22,810 nucleotides of DNA, from positions 1-22,810 of the IMG/VR virus record IMGVR_UViG_3300020442_000186. One strand, written 5' to 3'. Source of the stretch: a virus. The first letter of the stretch is position 1. Every line of letters begins with the position of its first letter. Made by a program: the position numbers and the translations under genes. The notes below the pieces were generated by a model. The model ran no database searches and was not told where the DNA came from. It saw only the letters and a list, made by a program, of their open reading frames with translations. This document shows, one piece after another, positions 1 through 22,810 of the stretch.

Positions 1-29
1 AGTATGTAAACGGCTAAAATGTTTCTCAT
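1..29 (-). CDS. Start of an unidentified minus-strand gene, cut by the window edge
   Basis: Only nine codons are visible (MRNILAVYI, then the edge). A start codon on the minus strand at 29-27 is preceded by AAAGGA (minus strand, 44-39) at nine bases, a good ribosome binding site. It lies 18 bases after the stop of the 101-residue minus-strand gene, so the two probably share one transcript. The product cannot be identified. Confidence 0.5.
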
Positions 30-47
30 TTTATGGTATCCTTTCAA

Positions 48-353
48 TTATTTCATAATTGGCTTGAAGCCAGTGTGATATTGTGCAAACAACTTCATGT
101 CTGCATTCATCTCCAATAGCTCGTGTTGTGCAGGGAAGTTGGATACAACACCTTGTCCTCTTGTGCTTTGCACATAGTCAATCTGCTCACCATTCAAGTA
201 CACAGAGTGTACTTTTTGTGTGTGATAGTCTGCAAAATCCTTTGGATATTGGTAGTTGCATTTGCTAGTAGGAATAATATATTCCTTGCGATTTTTAGGG
301 TCTAGCATTGGGTCTGCTTTGCAGTAAGTGATTTTGATTTTTGTGTTTTTCAT
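48..353 (-). CDS. Hypothetical protein, 101 aa, first gene of the leftward operon
   Basis: This is the only full gene on the minus strand. The start is supported by an AAGGA-type ribosome binding site just upstream and by a promoter with a TTGACA box further up (416-442). The product is soluble, rich in Lys, Tyr and His, with two cysteines and no membrane segment or signal peptide; I see no motif I recognise. Its position as first gene of a transcript running away from the lysis and structural genes suggests an early or regulatory role, which is inference only. No family is assigned. Confidence 0.75.
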   Translation of the reverse strand: MKNTKIKITYCKADPMLDPKNRKEYIIPTSKCNYQYPKDFADYHTQKVHSVYLNGEQIDYVQSTRGQGVVSNFPAQHELLEMNADMKLFAQYHTGFKPIMK

Positions 354-371
354 TTGTTTATTCCTTTCATA

Positions 372-422
372 GTATAATTATTAAAACACTTTTACTAACG
401 TTTCAAGTGTTTTTAATTATAC
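372..422. repeat. 18-bp inverted repeat over the leftward promoter
   Basis: Left arm 372-391 and right arm 405-422 are complementary over 9+9 base pairs, interrupted by two unpaired bases (381-382) in the left arm; the loop is 13 bases. The right arm contains the -10 box of the leftward promoter and the predicted start of transcription falls within the repeat. It could therefore be an operator for a dimeric repressor or a hairpin at the 5' end of the leftward mRNA. Both arms carry the heptamer AAGTGTT or its complement. Confidence 0.65.
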
Positions 423-442
423 GAAAGGATATAAGTTGTCAA
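416..442 (-). promoter_or_regulatory. Sigma-70-like promoter for the leftward genes
   Basis: On the minus strand a perfect TTGACA (plus coordinates 442-437) is followed after 15 bases by a perfect TATAAT (421-416). The spacer is shorter than the preferred 16-18 bases, but both boxes are exact. Transcription would start near 409, about 55 bases before the 101-residue gene. Confidence 0.7.
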
Positions 443-848
443 GGGGGTAGGGTATTTTTGTACTCCCAACCAACATTTTTTGCTACTTTTTGTGTAAATA
501 TCACTTTGTGATAAGCATTTTAAAAGACAACTCACCTCTCATGTGCGTATGTGCAGCGTGAAAGGGTCGTTTTTGTGTTGCAATTTACATTCTCATGGAG
601 AATGAGGGCAGTTTTCTCTCACATGTGCGTGTGTCCGGGAATATGCACACACATAAGGCACATTTGCATAGGGGTGGGCGATCGCCATGCCACCCGCCTA
701 CGTATACGTGTACACAGAAATACACAGATTAGGATATTTAAGTGTTAACCACAACAGTAACTGACATATAAAGTGTTGCAAGTATGCAACAGTTGCAACA
801 TTGCCACACTAAATACTACAAAATTATACTTATTTAATTATTTTGGGG
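443..848. other. Non-coding divergent control region with a G+C-richer palindromic block
   Basis: No credible gene is seen. From about 541 to 720 the G+C is clearly higher than on either side, and the block holds many short palindromes: a 7-bp hairpin with a 3-base loop at 588-604, GGCGATCGCC at 677-686, ACGTATACGT at 700-709, and GTGTACAC at 708-715. An 8-bp direct repeat, TACACAGA, occurs at 711 and 721. Further right, GTTGCA-AGTA-TGCAAC (775-790) is followed by the palindrome GTTGCAAC (792-799). AAGTGTT occurs at 740 and 771. Function is unknown; an operator cluster, origin or small RNA are all possible. Confidence 0.5.
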
Positions 849-876
849 TTGACAAGCTACAGAAAAAACGTATAAT
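849..876 (+). promoter_or_regulatory. Sigma-70-like promoter for the rightward operon
   Basis: TTGACA at 849-854 and TATAAT at 871-876 are separated by 16 bases, an almost ideal host-type promoter. Transcription would start near 883, leaving a leader of about 130 bases before the first plus-strand gene. It is likely the main promoter for the small-gene, lysis and packaging operon. Confidence 0.75.
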
Positions 877-893
877 TACCATATACAACTACT

Positions 894-906
894 ACAGTTA
901 AACTGT
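894..906. promoter_or_regulatory. Dyad ACAGTT-A-AACTGT just downstream of the rightward promoter
   Basis: A perfect 6-bp dyad with a single central base sits at about +12 to +24 from the predicted start, a normal place for a repressor site. A shorter similar dyad, CAGT-A-ACTG, lies at 755-763. No regulator gene is identified in the window, so the operator role is inference. Confidence 0.4.
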
Positions 907-974
907 TACACTTTAAAAATAAAATAATACATAATAGTAACATATTATATATATAAAAAATCTTGGTAATACAG

Positions 975-993
975 TATAATGTACATTCTGTAC
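975..993 (+). promoter_or_regulatory. Second -10-like box with an overlapping dyad
   Basis: TATAAT at 975-980 has no clear -35 box, but it is followed directly by the perfect dyad GTACA-TTC-TGTAC (981-993). A transcript from here would start near 987 and reach the ATG at 1014 with a short leader. It could be a weak or activator-dependent promoter; chance is possible in such AT-rich DNA. Confidence 0.3.
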
Positions 994-1013
994 TAAAATA
1001 ATAGTTGACATTT

Positions 1014-1220
1014 ATGAAAAAATCAGTAAAACTTACATATACAGATGATATTCTGTCAAGAACTTATGATTCCCTTCGTAAGTATGACGATCTACGTGCA
1101 GTTCACGTACCACATTCCTCTGTACATTATATTAGAGCCCTTATCAAAAAAGATACAGGCATAGAATACCCACTTTCCCAAGTAGAAAATGCTATGAAAG
1201 CAGAGGGGTGGACAGAATAA
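1014..1220 (+). CDS. Hypothetical protein, 68 aa
   Basis: First gene of the rightward operon. An in-frame TTG lies three codons upstream (1005), but ATG at 1014 is the more ordinary start; neither has a clear ribosome binding site. The product is a small soluble charged protein with an alternating Lys/Asp/Tyr pattern and no membrane segment. The C-terminal part (IEYPLSQVENAMKAEGW) looks like a helix. Fifteen bases separate it from the next gene. I do not recognise a family. A short protein heading an operon could be a regulator, but nothing shows this directly. Confidence 0.65.
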   Translation: MKKSVKLTYTDDILSRTYDSLRKYDDLRAVHVPHSSVHYIRALIKKDTGIEYPLSQVENAMKAEGWTE

Positions 1221-1235
1221 AGGAGAAAATTTAAA

Positions 1236-1493
1236 ATGTCAAAAGAAATGAGTGAAGCAGCTAAAATAAAAGTTATAAAAAGTATGAGTGCTGATGTCAA
1301 GTTAGGATATATCACAAGAGCCGATGCAATGCAAAGATTAAGGCAAGGTGGAATTACTTCAGATTTAATTGAAAAGCACTTTAGTAAAGGTGGTAATGTA
1401 ACAGCCAAAAGAAAAATGGCTAATGGTGGATATTCAAAGCCACATAACTATTTTGCAGGTGGAAGCGTAAAAAATAATTTAAAATCTAAGTAG
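1236..1493 (+). CDS. Hypothetical protein, 85 aa, with C-terminal MANGG/FAGG motif
   Basis: The start is set by AGGAG eleven to fifteen bases upstream. Residues 1-50 are helical and charged, including RADAMQRLRQGGITSDLIEKHF, which reads like a small helical bundle. The tail is glycine-rich and basic, with MANGG at 61-65 and FAGG at 73-76. The same layout, MAxGG then a short spacer then F-x-GG, appears in the protein encoded at 11086-12426, and MARGG/YARGG in the 43-residue protein at 4304-4435. The meaning of the motif is unknown to me. No membrane segment or signal peptide is present. Confidence 0.7.
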   Translation: MSKEMSEAAKIKVIKSMSADVKLGYITRADAMQRLRQGGITSDLIEKHFSKGGNVTAKRKMANGGYSKPHNYFAGGSVKNNLKSK

Positions 1494-1503
1494 GACTGCT
1501 TAC

Positions 1504-1983
1504 ATGATAGACCCCATCACATTGTCAGCAGCCGTTACAGGTGCGACCACAGCATACAATGCTATAAAAAAAGCTATAATGGTGGGCAAAGAAATTGAAG
1601 ACCTATCATCAGAGCTTGGCAAATGGATGTCAGCAGTTAGTGATGTAGATAATGTACATAGAAATGCTAATAATCCTACAGCTTTAGATAAACTATTTAA
1701 TGGGTCTATTGAACAAGTAGCAATAGAAAGTTTTTCAGCTAAAAAGAAACTAGAAAAACAGAGAGAAGAACTACGAAATTTTTTAATAGCTCACTACGGC
1801 ACACAAGCATGGGATGATTTATTAAGAGAAGAAGGTAGATTACGTAAAGCTAGACAGAAAGCTATCTACGCAAAAGAAGAACAGCAACGTAAAATAAGAG
1901 ATTACACTATTATGGGTTTGGCTGCTTTAGTAGGTGTAAGTGGTTTAGGCTGGATGATATGGCTAATAAGTATGTCAGTTTAA
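1504..1983 (+). CDS. Coiled-coil protein with one C-terminal membrane segment, 159 aa
   Basis: AGGA precedes the ATG. The N-terminus (MIDPITLSAAVTGATTAYNA) is small-residue rich and may be an amphipathic or membrane-associated helix. Residues about 75-132 form a strongly charged helical region rich in Lys, Arg and Glu, probably a coiled coil, and residues about 134-156 form a single hydrophobic segment. I recall similar MIDPIT... proteins in many marine phages, annotated as hypothetical. A membrane role in lysis or virion assembly is possible. The last 25 bases overlap the next gene, which starts inside the membrane-segment codons in another frame. Confidence 0.75.
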   Translation: MIDPITLSAAVTGATTAYNAIKKAIMVGKEIEDLSSELGKWMSAVSDVDNVHRNANNPTALDKLFNGSIEQVAIESFSAKKKLEKQREELRNFLIAHYGTQAWDDLLREEGRLRKARQKAIYAKEEQQRKIRDYTIMGLAALVGVSGLGWMIWLISMSV

Positions 1984-2249
1984 TCCTACTAATATTATTA
2001 TTACTTCCAACTGCTTCAGCAAAAGAAGACGATGTGAAGATGACGACTTGTAGATTAGCAAGTCAAATACTAGGGAATAATCAGAGGGTATGTGTCTTTA
2101 CAGGTGCAAACAATACACAGTACAGAGAGTATCTACCTTATGATGCAGGACCTTGCCCTAGACAATACCAATGTCCATATAGACCTAACAAAGAACCTTT
2201 TGATATTAAAAGTGTAGTTAGAAGTATAAAAAAGCAATTTAAGAATTGA
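1959..2249 (+). CDS. Small exported four-cysteine protein, 96 aa
   Basis: Residues 5-16 are a run of Leu, Ile and Val followed by TASA, a textbook signal peptide with an AxA-type cleavage site after residue 21. The mature part has four cysteines (31, 45, 66, 72), suggesting two disulfides, and a basic C-terminus. The core pattern TC...VCVFTG resembles the TC...CVY/VYC pattern in the products encoded at 2415 and 2597. The start overlaps the preceding gene by 25 bases. Location in the periplasm or outer surface is expected. Function is unknown; lysis, an outer spanin-like role or superinfection exclusion are all conceivable, without direct evidence. Confidence 0.7.
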   Translation: MANKYVSLILLILLLLPTASAKEDDVKMTTCRLASQILGNNQRVCVFTGANNTQYREYLPYDAGPCPRQYQCPYRPNKEPFDIKSVVRSIKKQFKN

Positions 2250-2274
2250 CAAGTAAACAAATAGATGCTATCAT
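2246..2274 (+). promoter_or_regulatory. Possible internal promoter
   Basis: TTGACA (2246-2251), 17 bases, then TATCAT (2269-2274), matching the sigma-70 consensus at 11 of 12 positions. The TTG is also a possible start codon of the next small gene and overlaps the stop of the previous one. If it is a promoter, transcription would begin near 2281, ten bases before the ATG at 2291. Confidence 0.35.
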
Positions 2275-2413
2275 TCTCTTTATATTTAAAATGTCAATGC
2301 GTTTATTTACAGCATTTATTTTATTTATGTTAGTATATGCAATATCAATGGGAATATTAAATGATATTTGTGGATGTGCAAGAGATTATGATTTAACAAA
2401 CTTATGGCGATAG
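2246..2413 (+). CDS. Small membrane protein, 55 aa (40 aa if ATG 2291 is used)
   Basis: An open frame runs from TTG at 2246, in a TTGA overlap with the preceding stop, to TAG at 2411-2413. It encodes a largely hydrophobic peptide with a membrane helix (for example LFTAFILFMLVYAISMGIL) and a polar C-terminus ending in NLWR. A CGC motif follows the helix. Starting at ATG 2291 would keep the helix but drop the first 15 residues. Neither start has a strong ribosome binding site. The codon pattern and its fit between two other small genes support it. Function unknown. Confidence 0.45.
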   Translation: MTSKQIDAIILFIFKMSMRLFTAFILFMLVYAISMGILNDICGCARDYDLTNLWR

Positions 2414-2414
2414 A

Positions 2415-2594
2415 ATGTTATGGGTATTATTTGTAATACTACAAGGAACAGAGATACAAGAAAATGTCTACTTCAATGATTTGGATACGTGCCTTGGATA
2501 TGCACAAAAGCTACGAGCACAGGACTTACACCAAAGACAAGCAGGTGATAAAGTCTATCTCAAAGTATATTGCATTCCTCAGAAAGGTGATTAG
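2415..2594 (+). CDS. Small two-cysteine, probably exported protein, 59 aa
   Basis: The ATG lies one base after the previous stop. The first nine residues (MLWVLFVIL) are hydrophobic, like a short signal or anchor. Two cysteines (26 and 53) sit in the pattern TCLGYAQKLRA ... VYC. The following gene has TCYGYIDNARA ... TCVY, so the two appear to be tandem paralogues. Function is not known. An alternative is that the N-terminus stays in the membrane and only the cysteine loop is outside. Confidence 0.6.
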   Translation: MLWVLFVILQGTEIQENVYFNDLDTCLGYAQKLRAQDLHQRQAGDKVYLKVYCIPQKGD

Positions 2595-2596
2595 AT

Positions 2597-2812
2597 ATGT
2601 GGATTCCAGTTATAACAATATTATGGGCACTGGGAGATAGTGCAACATGGGTAAATTTTCCAATGGTAAATTTTCCTTTTTCGTCAAGTGAAACTTGCTA
2701 CGGATATATAGACAATGCAAGGGCTAAGATAACACAAGACCCTCAATACCTAAATGGTTACAGTACATGTGTTTACATAGGTAGTCCTACAGGAACAGGA
2801 GAATCAACATGA
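2597..2812 (+). CDS. Small two-cysteine, probably exported protein, 71 aa
   Basis: It starts two bases after the previous stop. A hydrophobic N-terminus (residues 1-12) resembles a signal or anchor. There is a small repeat, VNFPMVNFP, at 19-27. Cysteines 34 and 58 lie in TCYGYIDNARA and TCVYIG, matching the neighbour upstream; this supports duplication of a short disulfide-bearing domain. The stop overlaps the next start as ATGA, so the genes are translationally coupled. Function unknown. Confidence 0.65.
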   Translation: MWIPVITILWALGDSATWVNFPMVNFPFSSSETCYGYIDNARAKITQDPQYLNGYSTCVYIGSPTGTGEST

Positions 2813-2940
2813 TTGATTGGAATAAAATTAAATTTGAAGTATGGAATAAAAGATTTGGCGAAGGAACAAATTTTGATTTAGACTATGGTAAATTACTTAT
2901 CATAGGTTTACTTGTTTATCATATATTCTTTCAAGGTTAG
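2809..2940 (+). CDS. Small single-span membrane protein, 43 aa
   Basis: The ATG overlaps the previous stop (ATGA). Residues 1-27 are polar and aromatic (MIDWNKIKFEVWNKRFGEG); residues about 29-42 are hydrophobic (LLIIGLLVYHIFF) and would span the membrane or anchor it with the N-terminus in the cytoplasm. Such tiny proteins are frequent in phage lysis regions. Position in an unbroken chain of genes is the main support; function is unknown. Confidence 0.6.
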   Translation: MIDWNKIKFEVWNKRFGEGTNFDLDYGKLLIIGLLVYHIFFQG

Positions 2941-2942
2941 TC

Positions 2943-3215
2943 ATGGCAGCTAAACTTGACAAATCTAAAATGGCTTGTAATAAACCAAGGCGAACACCTG
3001 ACCATCCTACAAAGTCACATGTAGTGAAAGCATGTAAAGATGGTAAAGAAAAAATTATTCGCTTTGGTCAACAAGGTGTAAAAGGAGCAGGAAAAAATCC
3101 AAAAAGTAAAAAAGACAAAGCACGTAAGAAGTCTTACTATGCTCGTCATAACGCACAAGATGCCAGTCCTGATATATTTAGTGCAAGGTATTGGTCTCAT
3201 AAAGTAAAATGGTAG
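2943..3215 (+). CDS. Conserved basic marine-phage protein, 90 aa, function unknown
   Basis: A strongly basic protein with a recognisable series of blocks: CNKPRRTPDHPTKSHVVKAC, IIRFGQQGVKGAG, then a Lys-rich stretch, YYARHNAQ, and a C-terminal ARYWSHKVKW. I recall this pattern (PRRTP.HPTKSHVVKA, IRFG.QG..TAG, AYWA.KVKW) from a family of uncharacterised proteins in many marine and other phages. Two cysteines flank the first block (12 and 31). No membrane segment. The positive charge suggests nucleic-acid binding, which is inference. It starts two bases after the previous stop. Confidence 0.8.
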   Translation: MAAKLDKSKMACNKPRRTPDHPTKSHVVKACKDGKEKIIRFGQQGVKGAGKNPKSKKDKARKKSYYARHNAQDASPDIFSARYWSHKVKW

Positions 3216-3225
3216 GAAAATAAAA

Positions 3226-3615
3226 ATGGCTAGAAAACTAACAGATTTAAGTGGTGACGGAAGAATAACACAAAAAGATGTTCTCATTGGTAGAGGTGTT
3301 ATAAAAGCTAAAGCAGGAACACTTGCAACAAAAGCAAAAGCAAAAATAAAAAAAGTTGCAAGTAAATTAACAAAAGCAAGTAAAGCTCACGCTGGTCAAG
3401 CTAAAACCTTAAATAAAGTTGTAAAAGCTAAGAAAGGTTTGTTAGCTAAAAAGTCTACAGGCAGTGCTATTCCTTCTAATCCAAAACTTTATGCTGCTGT
3501 TAAAGCCGAAGCAAAAAGAAAATTTGATGTATATCCATCGGCATATGCAAATGCTTGGCTAGTACGTACTTATAAGTCTAGAGGTGGTAAATATAAAACT
3601 GGGGGAAGACGTTGA
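3226..3615 (+). CDS. EF-hand-like loop plus Lys-rich linker plus C-terminal phage domain, 129 aa
   Basis: AGGA precedes the start. Residues 7-18 (DLSGDGRITQKD) fit a calcium-binding loop of the dockerin/EF-hand type, with acidic or polar residues at positions 1, 3, 5 and 12, Gly at 6 and Ile at 8. Residues about 25-75 are an Ala/Lys-rich low-complexity stretch resembling histone H1 tails. Residues about 85-122 (KLYAAVKAEAKRKFDVYPSA then YANAW...YKSRGGKY) are a conserved block I recall from uncharacterised marine-phage proteins. The first six residues (MARKLT) are identical to those of the candidate small terminase. Role unknown; DNA or virion binding is plausible. Confidence 0.75.
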   Translation: MARKLTDLSGDGRITQKDVLIGRGVIKAKAGTLATKAKAKIKKVASKLTKASKAHAGQAKTLNKVVKAKKGLLAKKSTGSAIPSNPKLYAAVKAEAKRKFDVYPSAYANAWLVRTYKSRGGKYKTGGRR

Positions 3616-4301: not shown

Positions 4302-4303
4302 AT

Positions 4304-5627: not shown

Positions 5628-5633
5628 TGAACT

Positions 5634-7002: not shown

Positions 7003-7390
7003 ATCAACTGGTGAGTGGAAGTTACCTGAGTTAATAGACTTAAAAGAAAATAGTGAATGGGTAGCAATACCACGTATAGCAAAAACAACTCCGTTTGGAT
7101 ATAAACCTGATCCTGAGAATGATCACATTCTTAGACCTATACCTCGTGAGTTAGATGCACTTGAAAAAGCAAAGCAACATTTAAAACAGTATTCATATAG
7201 AGAAGTAGCTAATTGGTTAAGTAAGTTTACTGATAGATATATCTCACATATAGGATTAATGAAAAGAGTAAAGCGTGAGCAAAAACGTAAGAACAAAGCT
7301 AGAACTCTCCGTGTCTGGTCAGAGTATGCAGAAAAGGCGATCCAAGCCGCGAAAAAACTTGAAGAAGAAAGAACAAGTAGCAGAGCCTAA
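6995..7390 (+). CDS. Conserved protein upstream of large terminase, 131 aa
   Basis: It overlaps the small terminase by eight bases. Blocks include ENSEWVAIPRIAKTTPFGYK, ELDALEKAKQHLKQYSYREV and TDRYISHIGLMKRVK. The middle resembles a helix-turn-helix of the kind found in resolvases and in terminase-linked proteins (REVANWL...ISHIGL). I recall similar proteins just before large terminases in marine phages. The C-terminus is a long charged helix running into the terminase gene in another frame. A DNA-binding role in packaging is inferred. It may be joined to the terminase by a +1 shift near 7350-7372 (see findings). Confidence 0.75.
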   Translation: MSRSTGEWKLPELIDLKENSEWVAIPRIAKTTPFGYKPDPENDHILRPIPRELDALEKAKQHLKQYSYREVANWLSKFTDRYISHIGLMKRVKREQKRKNKARTLRVWSEYAEKAIQAAKKLEEERTSSRA

Positions 7391-8831
7391 ACCTGTTATA
7401 AGAGAGTTAGAAGAAATAGAAACTGTTCCTGAAGAAGAACAGAATGTAGTATTTAAACCGAATGCAGGACCTCAGACTGAGTTTCTTGCAGCAGGAGAAA
7501 GAGAAGTTCTATATGGTGGTTCAGCAGGTGGGGGTAAATCCTTTGCAATGTTGGCAGACCCACTCAGATACATGGGTCATCCAGCCTTTAGTGGGTTGCT
7601 CCTTAGACACACAACGGAAGAACTCAGGGAACTTATATTCAAATCGCAAGAACTCTATCCGAAAGTCTGGAAAGGGATCAAGTGGTCAGAAAGAAAAATG
7701 CAATGGGTAGCACCATCAGGTGCTAGACTATGGATGTCATATCTTGATAGAGACCAAGACGTTATGCGTTATCAGGGTTTAGCATTTAGTTGGATCGGTT
7801 TTGATGAATTAACACAATGGTCAAGTCCATTTGCTTGGAACTATATGCGTTCACGTTTACGTTCTACTGCACATGACTTACCAATCTTTATGAGAGCAAC
7901 CACCAATCCGGGTGGTATTGGACATCAGTGGGTTAAGAAAATGTTTATTGACCCATCGCCTTTCGGAGAAGCATTTGACGCAACAGATATTGAAACAGGA
8001 GAAGTCCTCAAATACCCAGCAGGACACCCTAAAGCTGGAAAAGCTCTATTCAAACGGAGATTTATTCCTGCAAGATTATCTGACAATCCATACCTCTCAG
8101 AAAGTGGAGACTACGAAGCCATGCTCCTCTCTCTCCCAGAGCACCAAAGAAAACAGTTACTTGAAGGTGATTGGGATATTAAAGAAGGTGCGGCATTTAG
8201 CGAGTTTGATCGTAAGATACATGTTGTTAAACCCTTTCCGATTCCTAGTAATTGGATTAAGTTTAGGGCTTGTGACTATGGTTATGGGTCTTATTCGGGT
8301 GTGCTTTGGTTCGCTGTATCACCGGATGAACAATTGGTTGTTTACAGGGAACTTTACGTATCTAAGGTCCTTGCCACAGATTTGGCAGATATGATATTGG
8401 AGGTAGAAGCAGGAGATGGCAATATTAGATATGGTGTTTTGGACTCTAGCCTTTGGCATAATCGTGGCGATACTGGTCCTTCTTTGGCTGAACAAATGAT
8501 CACACGAGGATGTCGTTGGAGACCATCCGATAGAAGTAAAGGAAGTCGTGTTTCAGGTAAAAATGAAATACATAGAAGATTACAGGTAGACGAGTTTACG
8601 GAACAACCTAGACTTGTATTTTTTAGTACATGTACTGAAATGATTTCACAGTTACCTGCAATACCATTAGACAAAAGAAATCCAGAAGATGTAGATACAA
8701 ATGCAGAAGATCACTTGTATGACGCATTAAGATATGGTATAATGTCAAGACCAAGGTTTAGTATATTTGATTATGATCCTAACGTACCGAAACCTACATA
8801 CCAACCATCTGATAGTACCTTTGGATATTAA
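7326..8831 (+). CDS. terL: Terminase large subunit (ATPase and nuclease), 501 aa
   Basis: This is the motor that pumps DNA into the head and cuts it. Numbering from ATG 7326: Walker A GGSAGGGKS at 64-72, Walker B WIGFDE at 156-161, and the coupling motif ATTNPGG at 191-197. The RNase H-like nuclease acids are probably Asp317 (ACDYGYG), Asp373 (YGVLDSS) and Asp462 or Asp466 (EDHLYDALRYG). The start is uncertain: GTG 7275 and TTG 7359 are in the same frame, and the upstream gene reads through to 7390 in another frame. Conserved sequence begins only around VVFKPNAGPQTEF. Sequence style matches terminases of marine podovirus-like phages. Confidence 0.95.
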   Translation: MQKRRSKPRKNLKKKEQVAEPKPVIRELEEIETVPEEEQNVVFKPNAGPQTEFLAAGEREVLYGGSAGGGKSFAMLADPLRYMGHPAFSGLLLRHTTEELRELIFKSQELYPKVWKGIKWSERKMQWVAPSGARLWMSYLDRDQDVMRYQGLAFSWIGFDELTQWSSPFAWNYMRSRLRSTAHDLPIFMRATTNPGGIGHQWVKKMFIDPSPFGEAFDATDIETGEVLKYPAGHPKAGKALFKRRFIPARLSDNPYLSESGDYEAMLLSLPEHQRKQLLEGDWDIKEGAAFSEFDRKIHVVKPFPIPSNWIKFRACDYGYGSYSGVLWFAVSPDEQLVVYRELYVSKVLATDLADMILEVEAGDGNIRYGVLDSSLWHNRGDTGPSLAEQMITRGCRWRPSDRSKGSRVSGKNEIHRRLQVDEFTEQPRLVFFSTCTEMISQLPAIPLDKRNPEDVDTNAEDHLYDALRYGIMSRPRFSIFDYDPNVPKPTYQPSDSTFGY

Positions 8832-8839
8832 GGAATAAT

Positions 8840-10936
8840 ATGGCAGAAGAAAATATGATAGACATAGAAGAGAACGTAGCTTCTTTAGAGGATGTAAAAG
8901 ATATATCTAAAGAAGACGGCTCTGCAAATAATCTTATCCGTTATGTTATGGATAGATACCAAAAAGCAGAAGACTCTAGACAGAACGATGAAGATAGGTG
9001 GCTAAGAGCATATAGAAACTATCGTGGATTGTATGGTCCTGACGTACAATTTTCTGAAGCTGAAAAGTCAAGAGTGTTTGTTAAAATAACTAAAACAAAA
9101 ACACTTGCAGCTTATGGTCAGATAACAGATGTATTGTTTGCAGGCAATAAGTTTCCATTAAGTGTAGAACCAACAGAGTTACCTGAAGGTGTATCTGAAA
9201 GTGTTCACATTGATTTAGAACCAAACCCACTAGAAGAACAACAACCTTTACCACCTGAATATACTGGTGGAGAATTACCTGCAGGATATAGAGGTACTGA
9301 ACTAGGTCCACTAGAATCTAAACTAGCAGACCAAGAAGTAAAAGAAGGTCCGGGAACAAATCCAAAATCTGTAACTTATAGCCCTGCTATGATTGCAGCT
9401 AAACAAATGGAAAAGAAAATAATGGATCAATTAGAAGAATCTAATGCTTCTAAACATCTACGTAGTACAGCATTTGAAATGGCTTTATTTGGTACAGGTA
9501 TAATGAAAGGACCTTTTGCTGTAGATAAAGAATATCCAAATTGGGATAAAGAGGGTGACTATGATCCAATAGTAAAAACTGTACCACAAGTAAGTCATGT
9601 ATCTGTGTGGGATTTTTTTCCTGATCCTGATGCTACTAATATGGATGAAGCACAGTATGTTATAGAAAGACATAAACTATCTAGAACACAGCTACGTAAT
9701 TTAAAGAAAAGACCATTCTTTAGAGATACAGTTATAGACAATGTAATTCAAATGGGTGAAGCCTATGTTCAAAAAGATTGGGAACATGATCTTGCAGACT
9801 ATAATGATGAATATAGAATAGATAGATTTGAAGTTATTGAATATTGGGGTACAGTAGATAGAGATACGCTAGAACAAAATGAGATTGACATACCCAAAGA
9901 ATTAGACGAGTTTGATGAATTACAGGTTAATATCTGGGTATGTCAAGACAATTTAATTAGAGCAGTATTAAATCCATTTACACCTGCAAGAATACCATAT
10001 GTATCAGCACCTTATGAACTTAATCCATATTCATTCTTTGGTGTAGGTATTGCAGAAAATATGGATGATACACAAACATTAATGAATGGTTTTATGAGAA
10101 TGGCAGTAGACAATGCTGTATTGTCAGGAAACTTATTAATAGAAGTTGATGAAACTAATTTAGTTCCGGGACAAGACTTATCAGTATATCCGGGAAAAGT
10201 TTTTAGAAGACAAGGTGGAGCTCCGGGACAAGCAATTTTTGGTACTAAGTTTCCAAACGTATCAAATGAGAACATGCAATTGTTTGACAAAGCAAGACAA
10301 CTAGCAGATGAAAGCACAGGCTTACCATCATTTGCACACGGACAAACAGGTGTAGCAGGTACAGGAAGAACTGCATCAGGCATAAGTATGTTAATGAATG
10401 CAGCAAGTATAAGTATTAAATCTGTAATTAAAAATGTAGATGATTATTTATTAAGACCTCTAGGAGAAAGTCTATTTAGTTTTAATATGCAGTTTGATTT
10501 TAATCCTGATATACGTGGAGATTTAGAAGTTAAAGCTAGAGGAACAGAAAGTTTAATGGCTAATGAAGTAAGAAGCCAAAGGTTAATGCAATTCATGGGA
10601 ACTGCTAGTAATCCTGCTCTTGCTCCATTTGCTAAGTTTCAATATATAATTAGAGAGATAGCTAAGTCAATGGATTTAGACCCTGACAAAGTTACAAACA
10701 ATATGGAAGAAGCCGCACTACAAGCAAAGTTAATGCAAAGTATGCAACAACAACCACAACAACCTGAAGCAGGTGTTGACCCCAATGATTCAGCTGGAAC
10801 TGGTGGTGGAACAATAGGAACAGGACAAGTGCCTATACCAAACGAACAAGGATTTACAGGTAATGTTGGACAAGAGACGCAAACAGCTACTCCTCAAACT
10901 CAAGGGGCTGGTGCAAGACAAGAACCTACTAGATAA
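8840..10936 (+). CDS. Portal protein (head-tail connector), 698 aa
   Basis: A clear AGGA precedes the ATG and the gene follows the large terminase by eight bases, the usual order. At about 700 residues it is in the range of large podovirus portals of the P22 type. Visible blocks include NDEDRWLRAYRNYRGLYG near residue 50, KTKTLAAYGQITDVLF near 92, SVWDFFPDPDATNMDEAQYV in the middle, and the PYELNPYSFFGVGIAENMDD and TGRTASGISMLMNAA regions typical of portal proteins. The last about 80 residues are rich in Gln, Gly, Pro and Thr and probably unstructured. It would form a dodecameric ring at one vertex. Confidence 0.9.
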   Translation: MAEENMIDIEENVASLEDVKDISKEDGSANNLIRYVMDRYQKAEDSRQNDEDRWLRAYRNYRGLYGPDVQFSEAEKSRVFVKITKTKTLAAYGQITDVLFAGNKFPLSVEPTELPEGVSESVHIDLEPNPLEEQQPLPPEYTGGELPAGYRGTELGPLESKLADQEVKEGPGTNPKSVTYSPAMIAAKQMEKKIMDQLEESNASKHLRSTAFEMALFGTGIMKGPFAVDKEYPNWDKEGDYDPIVKTVPQVSHVSVWDFFPDPDATNMDEAQYVIERHKLSRTQLRNLKKRPFFRDTVIDNVIQMGEAYVQKDWEHDLADYNDEYRIDRFEVIEYWGTVDRDTLEQNEIDIPKELDEFDELQVNIWVCQDNLIRAVLNPFTPARIPYVSAPYELNPYSFFGVGIAENMDDTQTLMNGFMRMAVDNAVLSGNLLIEVDETNLVPGQDLSVYPGKVFRRQGGAPGQAIFGTKFPNVSNENMQLFDKARQLADESTGLPSFAHGQTGVAGTGRTASGISMLMNAASISIKSVIKNVDDYLLRPLGESLFSFNMQFDFNPDIRGDLEVKARGTESLMANEVRSQRLMQFMGTASNPALAPFAKFQYIIREIAKSMDLDPDKVTNNMEEAALQAKLMQSMQQQPQQPEAGVDPNDSAGTGGGTIGTGQVPIPNEQGFTGNVGQETQTATPQTQGAGARQEPTR

Positions 10937-11111
10937 TTTTAACGAATACTTAGATTTATTAATAGAACAACAACATAAAGCTATGGAATATAGCGACAAT
11001 ATGACCTTGATGTATAGATCACAAGGTTCAATTGCTACATTAAGAAGATTAAAACTTCTGAGAGAGGAAGTGCTAGGAGTAAAGAATGAAAAATCAAATG
11101 GAAATGTTTGA
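10911..11111 (+). CDS. Small helical protein after portal, 66 aa
   Basis: GTG 10911 is preferred over ATG 10863 because the sequence before it is a shadow of the portal frame; AAGGGG lies a few bases upstream. The protein is all-helical in appearance: NEYLDLLIEQQHKAMEYSDN, then YRSQGSIATLRRLKLLREEV. I recall short proteins with the YRxQGxxxxLxxLxxLRExV signature directly after marine-phage portals. Function unknown; a head-assembly cofactor is plausible. It overlaps the portal by 26 bases and the next gene by 26 bases. Confidence 0.75.
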   Translation: MQDKNLLDNFNEYLDLLIEQQHKAMEYSDNMTLMYRSQGSIATLRRLKLLREEVLGVKNEKSNGNV

Positions 11112-12426
11112 CCAAGGTGGACTTAAAGATGAGGGTGGCACAGTAGACCCTGTGTCTGGAAATGAAGTTCCAATAGGCTCTAATAAAGAAGAGGTTAGAG
11201 ATGACATAGATGCTAAACTATCTGAAGGTGAGTTTGTATTTCCTGCTGATGTTGTTCGTTATATAGGTTTAGAAAAACTTATGATGATGAGACAAGAAGC
11301 AAAACAAGGTCTTAAAAAGATGGAAGCTATGGGTCAGATGGGCAACGCAGATGAAGCAACAGTTCGTGATGATTTACCTTTTGATGAAACAGATATCATA
11401 GCAGAAGACGATGACGGCAATGAAGTAGAAATGGCAGAAGGTGGATTAACTCCTTCATCTAAATATAATCAATTTATGGGTGGTGCAGGTATAAGACAAG
11501 TAGTGTATGTAAATCCTAAAACAGGAGATGAGATACTTGTTTATATGGTAAGTGGCACACCTATACCTTCTATCCCTCTGGGATATGTTCCAAAAGGTTC
11601 TGAACAAGCTAATACAGATGCAATTACAGAATCTAAACTAACTAATGCTATAGAACCACCTAAAAATATTCAAGAGGATAAAGATGAAACGTATACAGTA
11701 TTTAATGGAAAGATTGTAAATCCGGGAGCCGATATAGTTTTAACAGGTGGTGATAGTTCTATACAGCCTGATACATGGGCTGACCTAGAAGCAGAAGGTA
11801 TGTTTGGAAAAGCAGTAGACCAAAGCAAAGCTCCGGCAGGATGGACTACACAAAATCAAAGAGAGTATAATAAACTAAAAGAAAAAGGAAATGTAAAAGC
11901 AATGTGGAACGGAAAAGAATGGGATGTATATTCTCCTGATCCAGCATTTGCAGGTTCAGCCTTTGGTAAACCGGGAACTCGTGGATTAAAATCTAAATAC
12001 GGAAATATCTTTGAAAATATAAAAACAGGATTTAGTCAAGACAAAAAAGAAGGAGAAGGTTTTACTTTACCTTTTGGTTTAGGTGTAGTATCAAAGATTG
12101 CACAAGCAAATAATAAAAAGATGGAAGATAATGTTGACTCTACTTTTGATGCATATGCTAAACGTAAAAAAGTAACAACAACAACAGCAGCAGGTAAAGG
12201 TCCGGGAACAACAAAACCAAGACCACTAAAACCAAAAACAGAAACACAGTTAAAGAACGTAGGTGTACAACAAACACAAACATCAACTAGTGATGACGAT
12301 GATAGATTTAGAGAAAAAAGAAGACAACAACAAGAAGAAAAAGGAATAAGAGGATCAGGTTTAACTGAAAAACAAATAAAAGAAACAGACGATATCTTTG
12401 AAAAAAGCACTGGCATAAGAAGATAA
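11086..12426 (+). CDS. Virion-associated protein with SEGEFVFPADVVRY motif, 446 aa
   Basis: AGGAG precedes the start. The N-terminal region has VPIGSNKEEVRDDIDAKLSE then GEFVFPADVVRYIGL (about 29-62), a block I recall from structural proteins near podovirus portals; a similar GEFV signature occurs in tape-measure proteins. At 116-133 it has MAEGG...FMGG, like the product at 1236. The middle contains VVYVNPKTGDEILVYMVS and PIPSIPLGYVP. The C-terminal third is low complexity, with Thr/Lys/Gln-rich and Asp runs, and ends in charged helices. A role in the head or as an injected or internal protein is inferred from position. Confidence 0.7.
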   Translation: MKNQMEMFDQGGLKDEGGTVDPVSGNEVPIGSNKEEVRDDIDAKLSEGEFVFPADVVRYIGLEKLMMMRQEAKQGLKKMEAMGQMGNADEATVRDDLPFDETDIIAEDDDGNEVEMAEGGLTPSSKYNQFMGGAGIRQVVYVNPKTGDEILVYMVSGTPIPSIPLGYVPKGSEQANTDAITESKLTNAIEPPKNIQEDKDETYTVFNGKIVNPGADIVLTGGDSSIQPDTWADLEAEGMFGKAVDQSKAPAGWTTQNQREYNKLKEKGNVKAMWNGKEWDVYSPDPAFAGSAFGKPGTRGLKSKYGNIFENIKTGFSQDKKEGEGFTLPFGLGVVSKIAQANNKKMEDNVDSTFDAYAKRKKVTTTTAAGKGPGTTKPRPLKPKTETQLKNVGVQQTQTSTSDDDDRFREKRRQQQEEKGIRGSGLTEKQIKETDDIFEKSTGIRR

Positions 12427-13644: not shown

Positions 13645-14727
13645 ATGGCTTTTACTACTGCGGCAGGATATGGAAATTTACCTAACGGAAATTTCTCGCC
13701 AATTATCTATTCTAAACAGGTACAACTTGCTTTTCGTAAGGGTTCTGTTGTAGAAGCGATAACAAATTCAGACTACTTTGGTGAAATTGCAAACTTTGGA
13801 GATACAGTTAAAGTAATCAAAGAACCTGAAATCACAGTCAAGTCATATGCTCGTGGCACAACTATTTCACCACAAGACATTGACGATGAAGAGTTCTCTC
13901 TTACCATTGACAAAGCAAACTATTTTGCATTTAAAGTTGATGATATTGAAGAAGCTCATTCGCATATTAACTTTCAATCACTTGCATCTGATCGTGCAGC
14001 GTATAGATTGAAAGATCAATACGATCAAGAAGTATTAGGTTATTTATCAGGATTTAAACAGTCAGCACTACATGGTGTTGCTGATACTGCTAATACCACA
14101 GTCAACGGAACTAAAGCTGTTTCAACAGCAGGTAGTGACGAATTACTTTCTTCAATGAAAATTGACGCAAGTGACTTTGGCGATGGTGATGGTAGTACAG
14201 GTTCTGCAAGTAACAGTATCGTACTTCAGCCAAGAGCAGGTGGAGCAACAGACACAACTCCTGCTGATGGTAATACTTTTCCATTGACATTGATTGCTCG
14301 TATGTCAAGAAAATTAGATCAGCAAAATGTTGACTCAGCAAATAGATGGCTTGTAGTTGACCCTGTATTTGTTGAACTATTAAAAGATGAAGACTCAAGA
14401 CTGTTTAACGCAGACTTTGGTGGAAACACAGGTGGTCTTCAGAATGGTATGGTTCTAAATAATTTACATGGTTTTAAAGTATACATGTCAAATAATTTGC
14501 CAACAGTTGGAACTGGTCCGGGAACTAACGCAGCTTCAAATACATCAAACTATGGTGTAATTGTTGCAGGTCATAGTTCTGCTATAGCAACTGCTGAACA
14601 AATCAATAAAACAGAAACTTACAGAGACCCTGATAGTTTCGCTGATATTGTTCGTGGTATGCATCTGTATGGTAGAAAGATACTTCGCCCTGAAGCCATC
14701 ACTACTGCAATCTACAACATAGCGTAA
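13645..14727 (+). CDS. Major capsid protein, 360 aa
   Basis: AGGAG lies upstream. The sequence has the features of HK97-fold phage coat proteins of the marine podovirus type: VQLAFRKGSVVEAITNSDYF near residue 27, a FGDTVKVIKEPEITVKSYAR strand region, ISPQDIDDEEFSLTIDKANY, then FKVDDIEEAHSH and an ARMSRKLDQQNVDSANRWLV helix-strand block. The C-terminus has DIVRGMHLYGRKILRPEAI. Position after the scaffold, a private strong promoter and the size agree. It would form the icosahedral shell. No cleavage site can be read off. Confidence 0.9.
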   Translation: MAFTTAAGYGNLPNGNFSPIIYSKQVQLAFRKGSVVEAITNSDYFGEIANFGDTVKVIKEPEITVKSYARGTTISPQDIDDEEFSLTIDKANYFAFKVDDIEEAHSHINFQSLASDRAAYRLKDQYDQEVLGYLSGFKQSALHGVADTANTTVNGTKAVSTAGSDELLSSMKIDASDFGDGDGSTGSASNSIVLQPRAGGATDTTPADGNTFPLTLIARMSRKLDQQNVDSANRWLVVDPVFVELLKDEDSRLFNADFGGNTGGLQNGMVLNNLHGFKVYMSNNLPTVGTGPGTNAASNTSNYGVIVAGHSSAIATAEQINKTETYRDPDSFADIVRGMHLYGRKILRPEAITTAIYNIA

Positions 14728-15232: not shown

Positions 15233-15244
15233 CTCACACACAAT

Positions 15245-15269: not shown

Positions 15270-15286
15270 ATAACTAGGAATTTAGT

Positions 15287-15637: not shown

Positions 15638-15639
15638 AC

Positions 15640-16071: not shown

Positions 16072-16073
16072 GT

Positions 16074-18122: not shown

Positions 18123-18135
18123 ATAGGAGAATATA

Positions 18136-18495: not shown

Positions 18496-18503
18496 GAGTA
18501 AAC

Positions 18504-19336: not shown

Positions 19337-19761
19337 GTGAAATATTAACTAATAAACTTACAGGCACAACCACAGCAGGTTCAATTGCCGTAACAGGTGA
19401 AGGTAATTCTACCACGACTAATCTGCAACAGGGGTTAGCAAAGGCTTGGACACATTTTCAAGGAACAAGCACGGCTGCTCATGTAGATAGTAATAATTTT
19501 AACACAAGTTCTGTAGACGATGATGGAACAGGTGATTATGGATTACATTTTACAAATAATATGGGTAATGCAACTTACGCTGTAACTTTTGGATTAGATG
19601 ACGATGGTTCGTCTAGTGTTGTACTAAATGCAGATACATCTAATGGAACTATGGCGGCAGGTAATTTTGATTTTGAAAGTTACTATGTGAATTCAACTAA
19701 TAATAGAACAAATTATGACTACGCTAATATTTATATAGTAGTACACGGAGACTTAGCATAA
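19333..19761 (+). CDS. Appendage paralogue family member 2, 142 aa
   Basis: The start is coupled by ATGA. The core KAWTHFQGTSTAAHVDSNNF, SSVDDDGTGDYGLHFTNNM and NATY is shared with members 3 and 4, and the end HGDLA is the family's C-terminal signature. The N-terminal 40 residues (LTNKLTGTTTAGSIAVTGEG) resemble fibre-shaft sequence. All-beta in appearance, no cysteine. Likely exposed on the virion. Confidence 0.7.
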   Translation: MSEILTNKLTGTTTAGSIAVTGEGNSTTTNLQQGLAKAWTHFQGTSTAAHVDSNNFNTSSVDDDGTGDYGLHFTNNMGNATYAVTFGLDDDGSSSVVLNADTSNGTMAAGNFDFESYYVNSTNNRTNYDYANIYIVVHGDLA

Positions 19762-20159
19762 TGGCTTTTGGTAATTTAAAATTTGATACGCTGACAACTT
19801 CTGATGCTAAGAACACAAACACAGAAAAGTCTATTGATACAAGTTATGTTTTTAATGGAAGTGCGAAACAATGGGTGCTACTTCAAAGTAGTGGAAATTC
19901 TGTTACAGATTCATTTAACAATTCAAGTGTTGCAGATAATGGCACTGGTGATTACACTTTAACAAGGACTAATAATATGGCAAATGCAACTTACTGTGCG
20001 ATTGGTAGTTCTGGCGACCCTCAAACTAGCCACAATGCTAGTTCAGATGTAGACGTGCAAACAACATCTGTGCATGATATAAGATGCGTTAATGATGCAG
20101 CAAATTCTACACAAGATATTCCAGATACAGTTAGTACAGTGCATGGAGAGGTAGCATGA
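19761..20159 (+). CDS. Appendage paralogue family member 3, 132 aa
   Basis: The ATG overlaps the previous stop by one base (TAATG). The core KQWVLLQSSGNSVTDSFNNS, SVADNGTGDYTLTRTNNM and NATYC aligns with members 2 and 4; it ends HGEVA. The N-terminal part, FGNLKFDTLTTSDAKNTNTE, differs from the other members, as if each protein joins a different attachment end to one shared domain. Two cysteines. The stop is coupled to the next gene. Confidence 0.7.
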   Translation: MAFGNLKFDTLTTSDAKNTNTEKSIDTSYVFNGSAKQWVLLQSSGNSVTDSFNNSSVADNGTGDYTLTRTNNMANATYCAIGSSGDPQTSHNASSDVDVQTTSVHDIRCVNDAANSTQDIPDTVSTVHGEVA

Positions 20160-20629
20160 TAAAAACACCAGAGTTTCAAGGAACACATTTATGGGAAAGA
20201 TTACATTGGGCGAAAGATAACTTAGAGAAAGTGCAATCAGATATACGAGTAGTATATGAAGACCCTGAAGATATGGACAACCCTGCAAAGATATTAGTTC
20301 CTGACCCTAATTGGATGGCTTGTGCATTACAGGGTGGCATACTACCACCTGTTGAAGTCTATTGGGAATTAGCAAAAGATGAAGCACAACCTAATTTTGA
20401 AAAACATACGAGAGGGTATTTGTTGCATAACACTAAACCTGTTGAAGCAATGACAGAAGAACAAGCAATAGAATACTTAATTAAAAAAGATATTCCACAA
20501 CGTGTATGGCGAACATGGAATGAGGGCAACAAACCAAAGATGGTTATATGCCGAACACATCAACTGCCTGAACATCGTCAATGGCGAAATGCATGGCAAA
20601 TAACCGATGATATAAAACTAGCAGCATAA
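20156..20629 (+). CDS. Phage protein with C-terminal RQWRNAW motif, 157 aa
   Basis: Soluble and mixed alpha/beta, unlike its neighbours: FQGTHLWERLHWAKDNLEKV at the start, PNWMACALQGGILPPVEVYW in the middle, MTEEQAIEYLIKKDIPQRVW, and RTHQLPEHRQWRNAWQI at the end. The last element matches PSDRHFRNAWAI in the next gene. PxxRxxRNAW is a motif I recall in proteins encoded among tail-fibre genes. A fibre assembly or chaperone role is possible. It interrupts the array of appendage paralogues. Confidence 0.65.
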   Translation: MIKTPEFQGTHLWERLHWAKDNLEKVQSDIRVVYEDPEDMDNPAKILVPDPNWMACALQGGILPPVEVYWELAKDEAQPNFEKHTRGYLLHNTKPVEAMTEEQAIEYLIKKDIPQRVWRTWNEGNKPKMVICRTHQLPEHRQWRNAWQITDDIKLAA

Positions 20630-20640
20630 AGGAGAACAAT

Positions 20641-21012
20641 ATGACAAGTTTTATCGTAGACAAGGATGGCAACCAGATTGATGCATCAACAGTTTCATCA
20701 AAGCCATCAGACCGACATTTTAGAAATGCTTGGGCGATTTCTGGTAAAGTTATAGCTGAAGACATGACTAAGGCTAAAGAAATATTTAAAGACAAGATAA
20801 GGGAAGTAAGAACACCTTTATTAGAAGCTGAAGATGTAGCATATATGAAAGCATTAGAAGCAGATGACGCTTCTGCTAAAACTGCAAGTGTTAATAAGAA
20901 GAAAGCATTGAGAGATGCACCTGCGGCAAAAGCTATTACAGATGCAGATACTATTGATAAGTTAAAAGCAGCGTGGGATACATCTGTACTTGGTGACAGC
21001 CCTTACGCATAA
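20641..21012 (+). CDS. Tail-region protein of the DRxFRNAW type, 123 aa
   Basis: AAGGAG supports the start. Sequence begins with IVDKDGNQIDASTVSSKPSD, then RHFRNAWAISG, KAKEIFKDKIREVRTPLLEA, DVAYMKALEADDASAKT and a C-terminal LKAAWDTSVLGDSPYA. I recall this arrangement (FRNAW, KAKEIFKDKIRxxRxPLLxxLD) in proteins next to tail fibres of many marine phages and some prophages, where it is hypothetical or called a tail-fibre assembly-like protein. Mainly helical, hence more likely a chaperone or connector than a fibre. Confidence 0.75.
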   Translation: MTSFIVDKDGNQIDASTVSSKPSDRHFRNAWAISGKVIAEDMTKAKEIFKDKIREVRTPLLEAEDVAYMKALEADDASAKTASVNKKKALRDAPAAKAITDADTIDKLKAAWDTSVLGDSPYA

Positions 21013-21022
21013 GGAGTAAACT

Positions 21023-21622
21023 ATGGCTTTAACTAAAGTAAGAACGGCTGGTATTAGTGGAACTTTATCAGCAGATAATATGCCTGATGGTTCTTTGATA
21101 GAGTTGCACTCTGTATCCACAGGTGTAGCCGTTTCTGAAATTGCTTTTAATAGCACTTACATAACAACTGCTTATGATGATTACCTTATGATTGGAAAAG
21201 CTGTAACACCTGCTACAGATGGTGCTGAACCAATGATTAGTATTTCAATAGACAATGGTTCTAATTTCAATGTTGCTGTTGATAATGGTAGACATTATAC
21301 CCAAATAACTGGTGCTAGTCATGGTGTAGAAGCAAATAGACATACCGCAGGGGAAATTCAAATAGGAACAGATTTAGGAAATGACGCTAATCAAGGTCAT
21401 GTATTTCATGCACATTTTTTTAATCTTAATAATACAAGTTTTAATAAATATATGTTTTATCAATGTTGTGGCAAACATCAATCTGCCGAATATAAATGGG
21501 ATGGTGGTGCAAATATAGAAACAACAAGTGCAATAAATTATTTAAAATTTCACTACAGCACTGGTAATGTTGCCGCAGGTTCAAGGGTAGCCTTGTATGG
21601 CATAAAGGGGAGTAATTTTTAA
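21023..21622 (+). CDS. Tail fibre or spike-like appendage protein, 199 aa
   Basis: AAGGAG lies upstream. It starts with a short shaft-like element (LTKVRTAGISGTLSADNMPD) typical of fibre N-termini, followed by an all-beta domain (IELHSVSTGVAVSEIAFNST, YDDYLMIGKAVTPATDG, ISISIDNGSNFNVAVDNG). Its C-terminal half is rich in His, Asn and aromatic residues with a CC pair (MFYQCCGKH), and it ends in ALYGIKGSNF. Such YGIK/YGI ends are common in appendage domains. A receptor-binding role is likely but not shown. Confidence 0.75.
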   Translation: MALTKVRTAGISGTLSADNMPDGSLIELHSVSTGVAVSEIAFNSTYITTAYDDYLMIGKAVTPATDGAEPMISISIDNGSNFNVAVDNGRHYTQITGASHGVEANRHTAGEIQIGTDLGNDANQGHVFHAHFFNLNNTSFNKYMFYQCCGKHQSAEYKWDGGANIETTSAINYLKFHYSTGNVAAGSRVALYGIKGSNF

Positions 21623-22081
21623 ATGCCATACATAGGAAAATCACCACACTTTGGAGTAAGAAACAGATACATCTATCAAGCCACAGCAGGGCAAACCTCT
21701 TTCAGTGGATCAGATAGTAGTTCCCTAGTTCTATCATACAACGACAGTTTGTACATGGATGTGTATCAGAATGGTGTGCTGTTAAAACCCGGAACTGATT
21801 ATACAGCGACAACAGGCACAACAGTTGTTCTTGTCACAGGTGCAAGTTTAAATGACGTAGTTGAGATGATTGTATATGATGTGTTCAGCGTAAACAATGC
21901 CTATACTAAAACTGAATCAGATACTCGTTATCCGTTCAAAGGCAACAACAGTATTATAAGATTAAATGGTCAAACTATATCAAATGATATTACAATAGAT
22001 AGTGATGAGAATGGTCAAAGTGCAGGTCCTATAACACAAAATGCTACAGTTACTGTTAATGGTTATTGGAGTATCGTATGA
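21623..22081 (+). CDS. Tail appendage protein with MPYIGKSPHFGVRNRYIY start, 152 aa
   Basis: It begins directly at the base after the previous stop. MPYIGKSPHFGVRNRYIYQA, TAGQTSFSGSDSSSL, YMDVYQNGVLLKPGTDYTAT and VEMIVYDVFSVNNAYTK are blocks I know from marine-phage tail proteins, often found as the N-terminal domain of longer fibres. Here the protein is short and ends GPITQNATVTVNGYWSIV, like the product at 18504. It may form a base to which separate tip proteins attach. ATGA overlap with the next gene. Confidence 0.8.
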   Translation: MPYIGKSPHFGVRNRYIYQATAGQTSFSGSDSSSLVLSYNDSLYMDVYQNGVLLKPGTDYTATTGTTVVLVTGASLNDVVEMIVYDVFSVNNAYTKTESDTRYPFKGNNSIIRLNGQTISNDITIDSDENGQSAGPITQNATVTVNGYWSIV

Positions 22082-22500
22082 CAAGTCAATTAAATGTAGA
22101 CACAATCGTAGACAAAGCAGGCAGTGGTGGTACAAATGTTAAGGTAGGCAATACATCTACTTATGTTTCAGATGGTGGTAATGTTACACAAAATCTTGTA
22201 CAGGGAGTGCTAAAAGCATGGGTTAGAATAGATGGCACTGGAACTGCCGCTATTGATGATTCATTTAACTGTGGAAGTTTAACCGACAGTGGCACAGGAA
22301 TTTTTTTCGTAACAAGAACTAATAATATGTTATCTGCTGATACTTATATTGTTACTGAAGGACAGTTTGTTAATTCTGTAAACACTAGTGGTGTAGATTG
22401 GTCTGTAACAACAACAGCAACAGTTCGTCTATCTGTTTTTGATACTAATTTAACAGATCGTGACCCTATGGGTTACAGTGTTGTAGGAGATTTAGCATAA
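22078..22500 (+). CDS. Appendage paralogue family member 4, 140 aa
   Basis: ATG 22078 (ATGA coupling) is preferred to ATG 22066, because MTSQLNVDTIVDKAGSGG then aligns with the starts of the products at 18950 and 22500. The core KAWVRIDGTGTAAIDDSFNC, GSLTDSGTGIFFVTRTNNM and the end VVGDLA match members 2 and 3. One cysteine. The order MPYIGK protein followed by a paralogue repeats the arrangement at 18504-19336, indicating block duplication. Confidence 0.75.
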   Translation: MTSQLNVDTIVDKAGSGGTNVKVGNTSTYVSDGGNVTQNLVQGVLKAWVRIDGTGTAAIDDSFNCGSLTDSGTGIFFVTRTNNMLSADTYIVTEGQFVNSVNTSGVDWSVTTTATVRLSVFDTNLTDRDPMGYSVVGDLA

Positions 22501-22810
22501 TGGCAAGTATACTAAAAGTAGATGCAGTTCAAACAACAACAGGAAAACCTCTTGTTAATAGCACTGGTTCTGTATTGCAAGTAAAACAAACTACCAAGAC
22601 TGATGTTCAAAGCATACAAAGTACAACACTCTTAGAAATTGGAGATTTAAATCTTACGATTACACCTTCTTCAACTTCAAGTAAAATATTACTTATGGCT
22701 GCTCCTTCTTTAAGTGGTTATGGTCACTACGATGCTTTACTACAAAGAACTGTAGGTGGAACAGATACTGTTTTACTTAGAGGAGATCAAGTAGGTTCTA
22801 ACAGGGCAAG
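22500..22810 (+). CDS. Tail appendage protein, partial, at least 103 aa
   Basis: The ATG overlaps the previous stop by one base and the frame runs off the right edge. It starts SILKVDAVQTTTGKPLVNST then GSVLQVKQTTKTD, IQSTTLLEIGDLNLTITPSS and SKILLMAAPSLSGYGHYDAL. I recall this combination (GSVLQV..TTKTD, L.VTITPSSTSSKIL) from appendage or fibre-tip domains in marine phages. The same KVD...T..G leader is on the products at 18950 and 22078. The part that would bind a ligand lies beyond the window. Confidence 0.8.
   Translation, partial: MASILKVDAVQTTTGKPLVNSTGSVLQVKQTTKTDVQSIQSTTLLEIGDLNLTITPSSTSSKILLMAAPSLSGYGHYDALLQRTVGGTDTVLLRGDQVGSNRA

Follow-up and report, generated by a model that had tools for sequence, protein, structure and literature searches.

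Avoidance of CCWGG in a marine HMO-2011-type phage fragment, and loss of the proline-glycine dipeptide in phages that avoid both CCWGG and CCGG

Avoidance of Type II restriction sites is common among non-temperate double-stranded DNA phages and is sometimes complete (Rusinov et al. 2018, PMC6286503). That survey, which resembles the present case in that orthodox Type II recognition sites are eliminated almost entirely from phage DNA, covered phages with known hosts and enzymes, and its main text is without CCWGG, EcoRII or amino acids. Here, we present an analysis of IMG/VR record IMGVR_UViG_3300020442_000186, a 22,810-base fragment (hereafter, the window) of an HMO-2011-type marine podophage that lacks CCWGG (CCAGG or CCTGG), together with its relatives and other phages. 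In the window, the terminase shares 80.5% identity with its counterpart in Puniceispirillum phage HMO-2011 and 79.5% with that in Roseobacter phage CRP-1, and the portal region has 73% DNA identity with CRP-1 on alignment. The terminase, portal and coat genes are homologous to those of HMO-2011 and the CRP/HTVC group, and they follow one another in the order found in HMO-2011 and CRP-1; the replication module (DNA polymerase A, helicase and integrase-like gene) falls outside the 22.8-kb fragment. We conclude that selection against CCWGG and several other short palindromes has probably acted strongly on the phage of the window, most likely via Type II restriction in the bacteria that it met. 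In most phages that avoid both CCWGG and CCGG, the proline-glycine (Pro-Gly) dipeptide is lost.

The absence of CCWGG from the window is real and strongly significant. An earlier note, made by reading the window, had claimed that CCWGG was absent where about 14 sites were expected, and exact string counts bear this out, with CCAGG and CCTGG both at 0. Base composition predicts 15.4 CCWGG sites, and a maximal-order Markov model 13.4 (+ strand) or 14.8 (both strands pooled). Permuting synonymous codons gave 12.2 +/- 2.0 sites, never fewer than 7 in 1000 shuffles; when codon-boundary dinucleotides were preserved as well, the permutation gave 11.3 +/- 1.9, with a minimum of 6. Thus, every null model predicts between 11.3 and 15.4 sites; the Poisson probability of finding none is 4e-7 to 1e-5, and CCWGG is the top-ranked 5-mer by depletion in the Markov model. 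The flanking counts in the note were also close to the mark: CCAG, put at about 18, occurs 19 times and CCTG, put at more than 50, occurs 59 times, while CCGGG, described as not rare, occurs 10 times (635, 7908, 9350, 10166, 10190, 10223, 11722, 11971, 12202 and 14518) and GATC, described as present, 44 times. CCCGG occurs once (21788).

Because any CCN codon followed by any GGN codon spells CCNGG, Pro-Gly has no synonymous escape from this family of words, and it is the sole dipeptide bound to them in this way. Within the window, all 10 Pro-Gly pairs use CCG (nine) or CCC (one), precisely at the positions that the note had listed; most proline codons are indeed CCT (130) or CCA (97), with 21 CCG and 9 CCC, so that CCW makes up 227 of 257. 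Conversely, all 10 coding CCNGG sites sit exactly at a Pro-Gly codon pair. The features concerned are as follows.

1..22810, no strand: the window as a whole; CCAGG and CCTGG absent from both strands, for 11-15 expected; TCGA, GGCC and GCGC also absent.
635..639, no strand: CCGGG, the sole CCNGG outside called genes.
7275..8831, + strand: terminase large subunit gene; the conserved Pro-Gly at residue 212 is CCG-GGT (7908).
8840..10936, + strand: portal gene; Pro-Gly at residues 171, 443, 451 and 462 is CCG-GGA (9350, 10166, 10190 and 10223).
11086..12426, + strand: gene of unknown function downstream of the portal gene; three Pro-Gly, each CCG-GGA (11722, 11971 and 12202).
13645..14727, + strand: coat protein gene (P22-like in HMO-2011); Pro-Gly at residue 292 is CCG-GGA (14518).
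21623..22081, + strand: tail-region gene; the sole CCC-GGA Pro-Gly of the window (21788).

The Pro-Gly pairs at portal residues 443, 451 and 462 are present in all relatives compared, and that at coat residue 292 is Pro-Ala in CRP-1 and CRP-345. The window represents a milder state, in which codons are switched and Pro-Gly is retained, and taken alone it is an ordinary, if extreme, example of a known strategy.

We found that CCWGG avoidance is common to the relatives of the window. Across 159 IMG/VR loci of relatives, some of which overlap, CCWGG was observed 104 times for 1483 expected (observed/expected counts are given in this form below) and CCSGG was at 1304/655. Among the 139 relatives' contigs of at least 5 kb, 116 had no coding CCWGG; in the remaining contigs, 83 residual sites lay at Pro-Gly and 5 elsewhere (P ~2e-24 versus the expected phase share). 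CCWGG is likewise depleted in complete isolate genomes, namely, HMO-2011 (0/74), CRP-738 (0/87), CRP-3 (1/84), HTVC115P (0/35), Aeromonas phage 1233 (0/166) and CHOED (1/68). Because these isolates have known hosts, the depletion is not a metagenome artefact. CRP-4 and CRP-6, which are unrelated phages of the same hosts, avoid CCWGG too. GATC avoidance in the group is all-or-none and independent of CCWGG, with GATC at 0/171 in HMO-2011 and 44/74 in the window. GATC and CCWGG were both eliminated in HMO-2011, Aeromonas phage 1233 and CHOED (GATC 2/251 and 1/206) and VpV262 (0), phages with different hosts, and close relatives of the GATC-eliminating phages have near-normal GATC.

The consequences of avoiding a second word are seen in relatives that differ in what they avoid. 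In the CCGG avoiders HTVC033P, CRP-9, CRP-2 and CRP-603, 49, 37, 27 and 27 CCWGG sites, respectively, lie at Pro-Gly and only 3, 3, 4 and 6 elsewhere. In CRP-1, CRP-345 and CRP-738, which avoid both words, Pro-Gly itself is scarce (13/45, 7/41 and 17/47) and ranks first by depletion among ~330 dipeptides. At orthologous positions, the retention of Pro-Gly relative to that of control dipeptides was 0.87-0.95 in these three phages and 1.10-1.69 in other phages, the reference comparisons not being independent of one another; at most of the lost pairs, Gly was retained and Pro replaced. Even these phages keep the invariant Pro-Gly at residue 212 of the terminase and at residues 443, 451 and 462 of the portal protein (window numbering). 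Over 29 named phages, the Pro-Gly ratio tracked whichever avoidance, of CCWGG or of CCGG, was the weaker when measured outside Pro-Gly (Spearman 0.63, P = 3e-4, calculated without phylogenetic correction), with CRP-2 (Pro-Gly ratio 0.60) among the exceptions.

Pro-Gly is also depleted in phages of other lineages. CRP-6, which belongs to a different phage group and shares its host strain with CRP-345, has CCWGG at 1/65, CCGG at 2/51 and Pro-Gly at 2/35. Pro-Gly was at 29/464 in 40 double-avoiding CRP-6-like IMG/VR contigs and at 35/343 in 33 double-avoiding cobavirus contigs; since the contigs of each set are related among themselves, these sums are not independent counts. In the CRP-6 set, Pro-Gly is the lowest dipeptide (67/600), while Gly-Pro is normal (558/597). 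In the cobavirus contigs, Cys-Ala (9/81) is rarer than Pro-Gly, and no forced site accounts for it. SIO1 and P12053L have Pro-Gly at 1/26 and 3/27. Vibrio phage VpV262 (46,012 bp) contains neither CCNGG of any kind nor GATC, and Pro-Gly does not occur in any of its 67 annotated proteins, for 37.9 expected (z = -6.2, with the next most depleted dipeptide at -3.0); a scan of IMG/VR with its coat protein matched only VpV262 itself. It is likely that restriction pressure on CCNGG purged Pro-Gly from the proteomes of at least four lineages, i.e., the cobaviruses, the CRP-6 group, some HMO-2011-type phages and VpV262.

How might CCWGG have been lost? The earlier note had offered restriction selection or deamination, with a codon-pair rule for Pro-Gly as the alternative. 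Such a rule would act in translation against CCA or CCT before GG codons, and the 10 of 10 CCS codons at Pro-Gly in the window, set against the usual CCW, are what it predicts. However, in 16 avoider genomes, which are complete or large and some of which are represented by most of their length, only 1 coding CCWGG was found for 716 expected, and the three codon phases are at 0/311, 0/115 and 1/290. Phases 1 and 2, in which there is no Pro-Gly, are thus as empty as the Pro-Gly phase, and relatives that avoid CCGG show the reverse pattern, with CCW as their only proline codons before GG. Because CCWGG is near zero in all codon phases, its avoidance acts at the DNA level; the codon-pair rule is refuted by the phase test and scarcely credible. 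The deamination account, in which CCWGG methylated by a Dcm-like enzyme decays through 5-methylcytosine to T and yields CTWGG and CCWAG, fares little better, although C5 methyltransferase genes do occur in 11 large phage records of the group. The products are at 1.06-1.25 times their expected number in avoiders and at 1.04-1.31 times in tolerant phages. The excess is alike in both, which speaks against mutational decay at methylated sites. Moreover, Pro-Gly is retained as CCG or CCC, which C-to-T decay does not yield, there is no conversion to Leu-Gly or to Pro-Arg or Pro-Ser, and HMO-2011, CRP-1, CRP-345, CRP-738 and Aeromonas phage 1233 avoid CCWGG without a PF00145 gene. We therefore regard deamination as very improbable; restriction selection is the best-supported account, as it agrees with the avoidance in all phases, in relatives and in unrelated phages and with the genes found in host families (see below).

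Two further explanations invoke selection by another agent. That the phages encode a CCWGG nuclease directed at the DNA of hosts or rivals, and keep their own genomes free of the site as a safeguard, would fit an avoidance that is near-universal in a phage group spanning hosts of different families. We consider it quite improbable; a profile search of the open reading frames of 30 phage records detected no EcoRII- or MvaI-like protein, no gene family splits the avoiders from the tolerant phages convincingly, and the unrelated same-host phages CRP-4 and CRP-6 avoid CCWGG as well. Non-classical host selection, e.g., by a methylation-sensing defence or a repair/recombination pathway, is suggested by the joint loss of GATC and CCWGG in HMO-2011, CHOED, Aeromonas phage 1233, VpV262 and T7; in enteric bacteria, these two sites are methylated by Dam and Dcm. 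This explanation is unlikely, considering that GATC avoidance in the group is independent of CCWGG and that the window, CRP-3 and CRP-738 avoid CCWGG without having eliminated GATC.

Phage methylation was considered in addition. A phage C5 methyltransferase that protects CCWGG and so permits it was rejected, because PF00145 does not correlate with tolerance: CRP-603 and CRP-9 are tolerant with it, CRP-2 is tolerant without it, and the relatives G003 and G006 are avoiders with it. NCBIfam and PDB matches did not reveal the specificity of the phage C5 methyltransferases, no C5 methylase lies within the window, and no Dam-family methylase was found. CRP-2 was reported to carry a cytosine-5 methylase (PMC6918029). 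In our PF00145 search, the CRP-2 record MK613344 gave no match, and CRP-603 and CRP-9 gave one each.

We infer that host restriction enzymes exert this selection. According to this model, hosts would commonly carry Type II endonucleases of matching specificities, for CCWGG of the EcoRII or MvaI/BcnI type, and synonymous changes would remove sites wherever the code permits. A phage facing only CCWGG enzymes would write Pro-Gly as CCG-GG or CCC-GG, as in the window, and a phage facing only CCGG enzymes would write it as CCW-GG; a phage exposed to both kinds of enzyme, or to one that cuts CCNGG, would have to replace amino acids, in most cases exchanging Pro for Ala, Ser or Glu and retaining Gly. 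Genes of these types occur in the host families: the EcoRII-C domain is present in 18/298 Rhodobacteraceae species (~6%), 1/136 of the SAR116 order and 11/385 alphaproteobacteria, and the MvaI_BcnI domain in 16/298 Rhodobacteraceae species (~5%) and 4/136 of the SAR116 order. One full-length EcoRII gene adjoins a Vsr repair gene, and one MvaI_BcnI gene of the SAR116 order adjoins a C5 methylase gene.

Several observations weigh against host restriction as the agent or against its link to Pro-Gly. The two domains occur in only ~1% (EcoRII-C) and ~3% (MvaI_BcnI) of SAR116-order genomes, although HMO-2011 avoids CCWGG totally, and the MvaI_BcnI Pfam family also includes CCSGG enzymes and so does not fix specificity. 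HMO-2011 has an integrase-like gene, which makes a strictly non-temperate life uncertain. CRP-3 and CRP-207 were isolated on the same strain, FZCC0040, yet have CCWGG at 1/84 and 32/92; the isolation host as the sole predictor of avoidance is thereby rejected, and lineage history matters as well. As for Pro-Gly, CRP-9 keeps a ratio of 0.81 despite low observed/expected ratios at both sites, T7, in which CCGG avoidance is not strong, has Pro-Gly at 7/31, and CRP-5, which tolerates CCWGG outside Pro-Gly, has it at 6/27.

The effect is not confined to CCWGG, as the earlier note had supposed. TCGA (0/21.8), GGCC (0/17.3) and GCGC (0/10.8) are equally missing from the window relative to Markov expectation, and ACSGT and AAGCTT are also absent, with codon-permutation expectations of 16 and 6; specificity for CCWGG alone is therefore rejected. 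Four low-GC relatives (G005, G006, G007 and G016) have most of this set of missing words in common with the window. Among SAR11 phages, HTVC115P has CASTG at 0/49 and HTVC010P has CTWAG at 0/40 and CTSAG at 0/23, pointing to further enzyme specificities. CRP-603 is strongly depleted of TCWGA (3/100) and AATT (31/137), and the other compared roseophages were not flagged for either.

Restriction-site avoidance is normally considered silent for proteins, and Pro-Gly shows otherwise. Palindromes of the form XYNY'X' that arise from fourfold codon boxes are dictated by an amino acid pair: CCNGG by Pro-Gly, GGNCC by Gly-Pro, GCNGC by Ala-Ala, ACNGT by Thr-Val and GTNAC by Val-Thr. A phage with a forced pair has the choice between vulnerability and a changed protein. 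If this is true, DNA-level immunity would be a direct constraint on protein sequence, and the retained Pro-Gly pairs in the terminase (212) and portal (443, 451 and 462) would mark positions that apparently cannot change. Residual sites together with the dipeptide count could then serve as a readout, taken from sequence alone, of the restriction specificities met by a phage lineage, which would be useful for uncultured marine phages with unknown hosts.

Among known systems, HMO-2011 shares the total absence of CCWGG with the window but retains TCGA, GGCC and GCGC. VpV262 (Zobellviridae) is without CCWGG like the window; unlike the window, it has none of the four CCNGG words, avoids GATC and lacks Pro-Gly in its annotated proteins. 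T7, of another phage lineage and another host, avoids CCWGG (2/59) about as strongly as the group of the window and has GATC at 6/143, and these counts of 2 CCWGG and 6 GATC are in line with the older literature; it tolerates CCGG (58 sites), and part of its sites may have been lost through amino acid change as well. In the openly accessible literature searched, we found no report of restriction avoidance removing a dipeptide. In contrast to the cases surveyed by Rusinov et al. (PMC6286503), here a whole marine phage group avoids CCWGG, and double avoidance extends into the amino acid sequence. Site avoidance itself is already known; of greater interest is that, in relatives of the window, avoidance of both halves of CCNGG extends to the proteins.

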